Positions 3,880 through 55,171 of a stretch of 64,000 nt of DNA are shown one piece after another (position 1 is the stretch's first letter; each line of letters opens with the position of its first letter). Under the pieces are notes generated by a model. The model made no database searches and was not told where the DNA came from. It was given only the letters and a program-made list of their open reading frames with translations. This DNA comes from Candidatus Fonsibacter ubiquis. GTDB lineage: Bacteria; Pseudomonadota; Alphaproteobacteria; Pelagibacterales; Pelagibacteraceae. The DNA is taken from NCBI RefSeq assembly GCF_002688585.1, contig NZ_CP024034.1:487501-551500 (forward strand). Reading direction: 5' to 3'. The position numbers and the translations under genes were made by a program.

Positions 3880-4313
3880 ATGAAAAATAAATACTTTAAT
3901 GAAAGAGAAAAAAGGTTTTTCAATTTCTTTTCTAATAAAGATGATTATTATAAAGGGTGCTATTTTGGAGAAACAAACCCATTAATAGATAATAAAATCA
4001 ATAAGATTAAAAAAGGTATATTAGTGATTTTAAAAGGCAACTTAAGAAAACCAAAGATAAACATGAGAAGGAAGATTTACTGGAACTTATTAAACTTTAT
4101 GAAAAACCAACAGATATTGTTGATAAAACAGTAGAGGAAGTAGTTGCTCCAGCTGTTATTATGGAAAAGATTGTTAAAAAAGAGGAGCCTGAAGCTAAAG
4201 ATCCAATCATATTTAAGACGGAGCCATATAGAAGGGATACCAGTCGTCTTGTTTATTGGTGCAATCCATTTGAACCCATTAATAAGGACAAACTTGGCAG
4301 CACTCAGAATTAG
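3880..4313 (+). pseudogene. Frameshifted gene of unknown function
   Basis: The frame opened by the ATG at 3880 runs to a stop at 4132-4134 (84 residues). From about 4014 a second frame has protein-like content and continues to a TAG at 4311-4313. It includes a helical charged stretch (RQLKKTKDKHEKEDLLELIK), a VEEVVAPAVIMEKIVKKEEPEAKDP linker-like part, and TSRLVYWCNPFEPINKDK near the end. The two frames meet at a run of six A (4009-4014). One extra A there would give a single 144-residue protein. The tail of the 84-residue frame (NMRRKIYWNLLNFMKNQQILLIKQ) looks like out-of-frame noise. This may be an inactivating indel, a homopolymer sequencing error, or slippage-dependent expression. No family recognised. 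Confidence 0.7.
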
Positions 4314-4439: not shown

Positions 4440-4811
4440 TTAAATTATAATACTAACTCTATGATTATTATCTAATTTCTTCAGATTATTGAGTATTTTT
4501 GTTGAAGTGATAAAAGTAGCGAAAACATTGACTTTTGAAACTAATCTAATCTCATTTTCTATTGAAACTGGTGTTTTTCCAAAGCCAATAGCTATTGAAT
4601 GACCATCACACCAATAAGCAACTTCGCCAAAAGTGACTACATCTCTAGCGTTTTTATCTGGCTTAATGCCTAGATTAGCTGTCTCGAAGTATATTTCCTC
4701 TCCCCAAGTGTTTATTTGGGCCTTAAATGAGCTTAATTTGGCCAATTTGAGCGCTGTTTGAGAGTTATTTAGGTTTAGTTTAATCTCAAAGTCATCGAAT
4801 TTAAGGAGCAT
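4440..4811 (-). CDS. Cyclophilin-like fold protein (TM1367-type)
   Basis: 123 residues resembling the Cyclophil_like / TM1367 family (PF04126). Matching features are a leading beta-rich segment, WGEEIYFET at about 36-44, VVTFGEVAYWCDGHSIAIGFGKTP at about 58-81, and a downstream VNVFATF strand. The fold is related to cyclophilin, but proline isomerase activity is not established for the family and its biological role is unknown. It is transcribed away from the recombinase gene across an 89-bp gap, and its base composition is less AT-rich than the core genes. Family match moderately confident; function unknown. Confidence 0.7.
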   Translation of the reverse strand: MLLKFDDFEIKLNLNNSQTALKLAKLSSFKAQINTWGEEIYFETANLGIKPDKNARDVVTFGEVAYWCDGHSIAIGFGKTPVSIENEIRLVSKVNVFATFITSTKILNNLKKLDNNHRVSIII

Positions 4812-4869
4812 TGATAATGATAAATAGCTATTTTTGATGATATTGACATCAATTTATAGTTGTATTAAT

Positions 4870-4898
4870 ATTTCCGATAATTAATGGTTATCGGAAAT
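4870..4898. repeat. Perfect 11-7-11 palindrome next to recombinase (dif/att-like)
   Basis: Left arm ATTTCCGATAA (4870-4880), spacer TTAATGG (4881-4887), right arm TTATCGGAAAT (4888-4898); the arms are exact reverse complements. The right arm ends 2 bp before the ATG of the tyrosine recombinase. Arms of 11 bp with inner ends ATAA and TTAT around a short spacer match the geometry of Xer dif sites (11-6-11) and of integrase core sites (6-8 bp overlap). Alternatives are an operator through which the recombinase represses itself, or an mRNA hairpin covering the start codon. Confidence 0.6.
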
Positions 4899-4900
4899 TT

Positions 4901-5818
4901 ATGTCAAATCTAGTTAAGGATCTTATTTCTATTGAATTAGAGACTTTAAATAATATCAGATCTTCAAAATCAGTTAATACTTTAAGAGCTTATAAATCTG
5001 ATTTTAATCATTTTATAAATTTTTGTAAAAAAAATAATTTTATATCTTTGCCAGCGGATCCAAAAATTGTTTCATTTTATCTAACTGACCTATCGTCAAA
5101 TTCAAAAGTAAGTACGTTAAAACGTCGATTGGCCTCTATTAGTGTAATTCACAAACTAAAAGGACACTATATAGACATTAAGCATCCACTAATAATTGAA
5201 AATTTAATGGGTATACAAAGAAAGAAGGGTGTATTTCAAAAATCCAAAAATCCGATTTTAATTAATGAATTAAAAGAAATTATCAATGTTATAGATAAGT
5301 CAGAAAAAAATATTCTAAAAAAAACTAGAAATAAAGCTTTAATATTAATTGGATTTTCAGGAGGTTTTAGAAGGTCGGAACTGGTAAATATTGATTTTGA
5401 AGATTTGGAATTTACAATAGAAGGTGTCAAAATTTTTATTAAACGATCTAAAACTGATCAATCCGGAGAAGGAATGATAAAAGCTATACCCTATTTTAAA
5501 GAAAAAAATTTTTGTCCAGTTACTTATTTAAAAAATTGGATTGAGATTTGTAAAGTAAATAAAGGTTTTGTTTTTAACATTTCAGATAAAATGGTTGCAA
5601 TTTTAATAAAAAAATATTTATTAGCAGCTGGATTTGATCCAAAAAAATATTCTGGACATAGTTTAAGATCTGGATTTGCAACAACTGCGGCTAGTTCAGG
5701 TGCAGATGAAAAAAGCATAATGACAATGACTGGTCATAAAACTACTCAAATGGTAAGACGATATATCAAAGAGTCAAATTTATTTAAAAATAATGCTTTA
5801 AATAAAATAGATTTATAA
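4901..5818 (+). CDS. Tyrosine recombinase / phage-type integrase
   Basis: 305 residues with a complete catalytic set: Arg157 in GGFRRSEL, Lys184 in RSKTDQ, His253 and Arg256 in HSLRSG, His279 in GHKTT and nucleophile Tyr288 in MVRRYI. The N-terminal SAM-like core-binding domain covers about residues 7-105 (SVNTLRAYKSDFNHFINFC). Length fits Xer-like or simple integrases without an arm-binding domain. The gene sits next to a perfect palindrome and inside a cluster of unrecognised genes, and does not abut a tRNA. It may be the integrase of a small element or a stand-alone resolvase; chromosomal XerC/XerD is less likely because of the accessory context. Confidence 0.93.
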   Translation: MSNLVKDLISIELETLNNIRSSKSVNTLRAYKSDFNHFINFCKKNNFISLPADPKIVSFYLTDLSSNSKVSTLKRRLASISVIHKLKGHYIDIKHPLIIENLMGIQRKKGVFQKSKNPILINELKEIINVIDKSEKNILKKTRNKALILIGFSGGFRRSELVNIDFEDLEFTIEGVKIFIKRSKTDQSGEGMIKAIPYFKEKNFCPVTYLKNWIEICKVNKGFVFNISDKMVAILIKKYLLAAGFDPKKYSGHSLRSGFATTAASSGADEKSIMTMTGHKTTQMVRRYIKESNLFKNNALNKIDL

Positions 5819-55142: not shown

Positions 55143-55171
55143 TTAAAGGGCCGAATAAATCGGCCCTTTAA
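55143..55171. terminator. GC-rich hairpin between aapJ and aapQ
   Basis: Perfect 12-bp inverted repeat TTAAAGGGCCGA (55143-55154) and TCGGCCCTTTAA (55160-55171) with a 5-nt loop. It is among the most GC-rich stems in an AT-rich window. In the minus-strand transcript no U tract follows it, so it fits a 3'-end stabiliser or partial attenuator that lets the binding-protein gene be expressed above the permease genes. Confidence 0.7.

Follow-up and report, generated by a model that had tools for sequence, protein, structure and literature searches.

A perfect palindrome at the replication terminus of this SAR11 chromosome, together with the adjacent gene for a single Cre/Xer-like recombinase, very probably constitutes the chromosome dimer resolution module of the Pelagibacteraceae, a replacement for XerCD/dif that would be of plasmid origin. 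The assignment of such a single-recombinase, Xer/dif-like function is based on the conservation of the module, the co-variation of site and recombinase, the terminus position, the orientation of KOPS motifs, the retention of the FtsK gamma domain and the contrast with a sister family. This system was previously unrecognised. Carnoy and Roten (2009; PMC2731167) reported no dif/Xer system in Pelagibacter and ascribed the loss to genome streamlining, and no later paper describing a SAR11 dif site was found in our literature search. The SAR11 system appears to have been overlooked because a different recombinase and a different site took the place of XerCD/dif. Few cell types on Earth are as abundant as SAR11 bacteria, and the loss of dimer resolution claimed for them by that survey is countered here. 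A core function of chromosome maintenance has apparently been taken over by a plasmid-type module; the site marks the SAR11 replication terminus exactly, and the module offers a testable integration route for integrase-less pelagiphages.

The recombinase, its site and the replication terminus

The window, i.e. the whole stretch of 64,000 nucleotides that was analysed, covers positions 487,501-551,500 of a complete single-contig genome of 1,160,202 bp. The locus comprises the following features, in window coordinates:

4440..4811, minus strand: cyclophilin-like gene (PF04126, by profile match), a flank common within the genus and outside the mechanism
4843..4848, plus strand: -35-like TTGACA, conserved in the comparison of 151 loci, shortly 5' of the GATAA core
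4866-4871, plus strand: putative -10-like TAATAT, which would overlap the left arm
4870..4898, plus strand: dif-like site of type A, recognised by its sequence, single copy, retention in relatives and nearness to the GC-skew maximum
4881..4887, plus strand: asymmetric 7-bp central spacer TTAATGG, between the arms
4901..5818, plus strand: single tyrosine recombinase of 305 aa (open reading frame, PF00589, catalytic residues)

The site is made of two perfect 11-bp arms, ATTTCCGATAA on the left (4870-4880) and TTATCGGAAAT on the right (4888-4898), on either side of the spacer, which is predicted to act as the 7-bp overlap for strand exchange. Two bases separate its end from the recombinase ATG at 4901; palindrome, spacer and gap are exactly as described in an earlier note on this DNA. 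Taken by itself the palindrome is within chance expectation, since perfect 11-bp inverted repeats with 5-8-bp spacers are not rare in AT-rich sequence (three loci in the 64-kb window, for 0.75 expected from mononucleotide shuffles). Its weight therefore comes from comparison, and its conservation across genomes is far beyond chance. A further perfect hairpin of the window, TTAAAGGGCCGAATAAATCGGCCCTTTAA at 55143-55171, is terminator-like and unrelated to the dif-like site.

The recombinase matches the PF00589 (3e-18) and PF02899 (3e-5) profiles. The full R-K-H-R-H-Y catalytic set attributed to it earlier was confirmed as R157, K184, H253, R256, H279 and Y288, each shared by 99% or more of 157 homologues, and this set and the Phage_integrase fold place the protein in the tyrosine recombinase superfamily. 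It is the sole PF00589 (Phage_integrase-family) protein of the genome, and exactly one such protein is likewise found in 8 of 11 single-contig Pelagibacteraceae genomes. Its scores are far below the NCBIfam equivalog cut-offs for XerD (73.4 vs 329.6), XerC (66.5 vs 335), XerS (57.1 vs 267) and the archaeal XerA (68 vs 220). XerH chains gave a weak phmmer match (7e-5), and the family hits include no XerH model. The nearest solved proteins in fold and sequence are Cre, then XerA, XerH and XerD, the fold match being only moderate as the predicted model has a pLDDT of 77 and a pTM of 0.52.

The site is located at position 492,372 of the genome, 1.07 kb away from the maximum of the whole-genome cumulative GC skew (493,446), the minimum being at the start of the sequence, by dnaA. 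Its distance from the highest skew value within the surrounding 200 kb is 0.57-3.7 kb in six further complete family genomes, where it is separated from dnaA by 0.42-0.49 of the genome length. This position is that of a dif site. Most of the properties by which Carnoy and Roten recognised dif are observed: the site is non-coding, present in single copy, close to the cumulative GC-skew maximum, palindromic and low in G+C (8 of its 29 bases; PMC2731167). It does not have the canonical dif sequence, with its conserved XerD box and 6-bp centre.

All 17 genomes tested encode an FtsK gamma domain. KOPS of the E. coli type (GGGNAGGG) are oriented towards the site in a ratio of 16:1 in this genome and of 17:0 within 100 kb in the six other genomes together; these counts are small and permuted motifs display a median of 13:5 in the same direction. 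Part of the bias is general G-skew, and KOPS polarity is therefore supporting and not decisive. Oriented heptamers searched de novo in this genome mostly reflected base composition and were set aside. One recombinase, a terminus site and an FtsK with oriented motifs, the components of single-recombinase dimer resolution, are all present.

The proposed mechanism can be summarized as follows. Each site would be occupied by two recombinase subunits, one on each arm. In a dimeric chromosome, two sites would be brought together at the division septum, where they would be paired and activated through oriented translocation by FtsK. Cleavage and strand exchange across the 7-bp spacer would then resolve the dimer into two monomers. 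Site binding would probably also repress the recombinase's own promoter, the putative -10 region of which abuts the site. Resolution would not cut the gene from its promoter, as had been supposed earlier, because recombination between identical dif sites restores the same sequence.

Conservation and site types in the Pelagibacteraceae

Orthologues of the recombinase were retrieved from 90 of 118 Pelagibacteraceae genomes, most of the 28 genomes with no match being fragmentary. Two of these (G023 and G055) were considered as true cases of a missing dimer resolution system; this was rejected, as their contigs G023:C20 and G055:C21 stop at or near the terminus locus. The site of the window, searched as TTCCGATAATTAATGGTTATCGGAA with up to 3 mismatches, was retrieved from 39 of 197 relatives, in a single copy per genome and adjoining the recombinase, with 0 control matches. 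An exact-core scan of the genomes of 84,980 species with the pattern GATAATTAATKGTTATCRRWA returned at least 120 stretches, and 80 of 80 of the matches listed belong to the Pelagibacterales. The recombinase starts 5-21 nt 3' of the exact core in 117 of the 120 loci compared; the remaining three are cut by contig ends.

The sites are of two types, both found a few bases upstream of the recombinase gene: type A, TTCCGATAA-TTAATGG-TTATCGGAA, and type B, TTACTANYGATAA-TTAATKG-TTATCAATAGTAA, with 13-bp arms. Of 151 loci, 146 have TTAATGG or TTAATTG as spacer, and nearly all show a TTGAC that starts 31-34 nt upstream of the core. When mapped on a tree of 89 recombinases, the site type requires only one change (support 100/98), for an average of about 29 changes in shuffles; the outer arms and the recombinase thus co-vary. 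Type B recombinases (e.g. at loci L124 and L136) display a loop of some 12-14 residues (RRFxKG...NRLTDQ) which is absent from type A proteins and might confer arm specificity or contact FtsK.

Both site types are present within genera. In one genome of the window's own genus (G010, locus L134), the type B protein and site are inserted in the usual flank of the genus, indicating that the recombinase/site pair is exchanged as a unit between SAR11 lineages; a type B module within type A flanks is found in this genome and in G076 (L031). Unit exchange at the same chromosomal slot was also seen between G032 and G020. A 62%-identical SAR11-type recombinase at a contig edge in another alphaproteobacterial family (G509:C46:216-1166) is due to either contamination or transfer.

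Genome G036 (1,308,759 bases), which we take to be that of Ca. P. ubique HTCC1062, carries a type B site and recombinase at 998 kb. From this identity and position, the G036 orthologue of the window recombinase would be SAR11_1019. This HTCC1062 gene, annotated xerD, is up about 8-fold together with recA under sulfur limitation (PMC5069961), and light induces both xerD and recA (PMC3090418). Such co-induction is consistent with a damage-linked role.

Relatives on plasmids and sites on pelagiphages

Genomes of the sister family, in the same order, mostly encode two PF00589 proteins (one sampled protein scores 323 bits with XerD and 270 bits with XerC) and bear a canonical dif-like site, e.g. 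TCGTATAATATATATTATGTTAAAT. Matches to canonical dif in the Pelagibacteraceae are, in contrast, at chance level only, and the best one in this genome differs at 3 positions, which equals the control level. Where canonical dif has a conserved XerD box (TTATGTTAAAT) and a 6-bp centre, the window site has TTATCGGAAAT, with a TTAT inner end, and a 7-bp centre. In the Pelagibacteraceae, the module would have taken the place of the XerCD/dif system kept in the sister family.

The nearest relatives outside SAR11 are plasmid-borne 'site-specific integrases' of 37-41% identity, along with scattered alphaproteobacterial loci. Several of these outside relatives (L480, L483, L484, L463, L466, L468, L472 and L478) have palindromes resembling TCCGATAA-N6/7-TTATCGGA near the gene. 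An Alicyclobacillus plasmid carries CTTCCGATAA-tttaacg-TTATCAGAAG and a Protochlamydia plasmid TAACGTTCGATAA-tgtgttc-TTATCGAACGTTA, both 5' of the recombinase gene. The search employed the SAR11 arm as template and is hence biased to that arm; clear cases scored 23-26, with shuffles reaching 17-21. These plasmid and alphaproteobacterial relatives apparently form an undescribed family of recombinase/site modules. In the tree, the plasmid proteins branch nearest to the SAR11 clade, a placement that is weakly supported (86/86), and are clearly separated from XerC/D (100/100); four entries (L461, L464, L465 and L469) were mis-extracted or very long, and the tree is confident for the SAR11 and Xer clades only. 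In their arms, type A sites are similar to those of the plasmids, although the tree nests type A within type B. Given the plasmid location of the nearest outside relatives and the TCCGATAA-N7-TTATCGGA site of several among them, the SAR11 module was probably recruited from plasmid recombinases, most likely as a multimer-resolution module.

Sixteen IMG/VR viral contigs (L329-L344) carry the exact site and no recombinase; a reversed 21-base control pattern produced one match. A looser 17-base pattern was dropped owing to too many AT-rich matches. Genes for terminase subunits, portal or connector proteins and an endolysin are present on the viral contigs examined, in which the site either separates terS from terL or lies next to terS. 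The TerL proteins of site-bearing contigs are related to those of pelagiphages HTVC106P and HTVC010P. Most of these phage lineages bear type A and type B sites in tandem, usually only one of them with the host spacer TTAATKG, and similar, partly degenerate tandem sites are present in the isolates HTVC035P, HTVC100P and HTVC106P (L452, L453 and L454). No PF00589 protein was found in the four pelagiphage isolates tested. The tandem sites of these integrase-less pelagiphages suggest the use of the host recombinase, and in this respect they resemble elements that integrate by means of host Xer recombinases. No integrated prophage was found at the dif-like site in the 120 SAR11 loci compared, and phage use of the site is for this reason put forward as a hypothesis. 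Pelagiphages of the HTVC010P/HTVC106P kind might be temperate, their tandem A and B dif mimics giving entry to the chromosome terminus through the recombinase of either host type; we rate this proposal at slightly below an even chance. If it is true, the double site opens hosts of either recombinase type to a single phage.

Alternative explanations and known systems

The site lies between the conserved TTGACA and the start codon at a fixed spacing, as would be the case for a palindrome serving solely as a transcriptional operator of the recombinase promoter, bound by the recombinase or by another repressor, with recombination taking place elsewhere. We regard this as very unlikely, given that an operator would need neither a terminus position in every genome nor a conserved asymmetric 7-bp spacer, that recombinase-less phages carry the site and that the genome has no other site of the kind. 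The earlier note had opposed an operator to a recombination site; the fixed-distance TTGACA 5' of the site makes an additional autoregulation plausible, and the two are therefore complementary. Its view of the palindrome as a dif-resembling recombination site of the adjacent recombinase is very probably right, the site being conserved, located at the terminus and endowed with co-varying arms.

The same note favoured a small mobile or resolvable element, in which the recombinase would be the integrase and the palindrome an att site. The presence of a site beside a tyrosine recombinase gene, a nearby open reading frame (3880-4313) that looks frameshifted and the exchange of gene and site as a unit between lineages (G010, G076) would all suit such an element. 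This explanation is nevertheless extremely improbable, as the locus is present family-wide in single copy at the replication terminus, devoid of duplicate site or cargo, and occupies the same slot in relatives sharing the upstream flank. A single copy of the site had been viewed as a refutation of recombination; no second copy was indeed found in this genome, but single copy is what dif requires. The neighbouring genes had been described as unrecognised and one as broken: the upstream gene is in fact cyclophilin-like and common within the genus, while the small open reading frame does look frameshifted, its 3' part running on in another frame. A system devoted chiefly to the resolution of plasmid or phage multimers in SAR11, with an incidental terminus position, would account for the plasmid-borne nearest relatives outside SAR11 and for the phage sites. 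It is very unlikely in view of the terminus position in 7 of 7 complete genomes analysed, the converging KOPS and the fact that no other Xer-type recombinase is left for the chromosome in this genome.

Chromosome dimer resolution by a single recombinase, the reading retained here, has parallels in several known systems. XerCD/dif shares the terminus site, KOPS, FtsK gamma and palindromic arms with ATAA/TTAT inner ends, but employs two recombinases and a 6-bp spacer (7 bp in SAR11), and is absent here and kept in the sister family. P1 Cre, which resolves P1 plasmid dimers, is also a single recombinase, with lox directly upstream of cre and 13-bp arms as in type B; the lox spacer is 8 bp. Cre differs by its low identity to the SAR11 recombinase (about 20%) and by belonging to a phage-plasmid and not to a chromosome. 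The plasmid-borne integrases (Alicyclobacillus, Paenibacillus, Protochlamydia and a Rickettsiales plasmid) are alike in their 37-41% identity and, for several, in GATAA-N7-TTATC-like palindromes 5' of the gene; they differ in their plasmid location and putative function, a terminus role being known for none. XerS/difSL of Streptococcus and Lactococcus and XerH/difH of Helicobacter and Campylobacter are single-recombinase, FtsK-linked systems with a terminus site adjacent to the recombinase's own gene. Their proteins are longer (356 aa for XerS, 354-362 aa for XerH), their arms imperfect and their centres of 11 bp and 6-10 bp, respectively (PMC5357621), whereas the SAR11 module has a 305-aa protein, perfect arms and a 7-bp centre.

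The closest precedent, compared by description, is XerL/dif of the Legionellales (Nicholson et al. 2022, PMC9765430), which was found via a mobile element carrying a mimic site. The XerL arms are without reported homology to known sites, and the catalytic tyrosine is Y387 in L. pneumophila vs Y288 in SAR11. As in SAR11, a single recombinase is associated with perfect-dyad arms near the GC-skew maximum. In Coxiella, a recombinase gene located on a plasmid has a copy of the site next to it, and the Legionellales, like SAR11, had earlier been reported to lack dif/Xer (PMC9765430).
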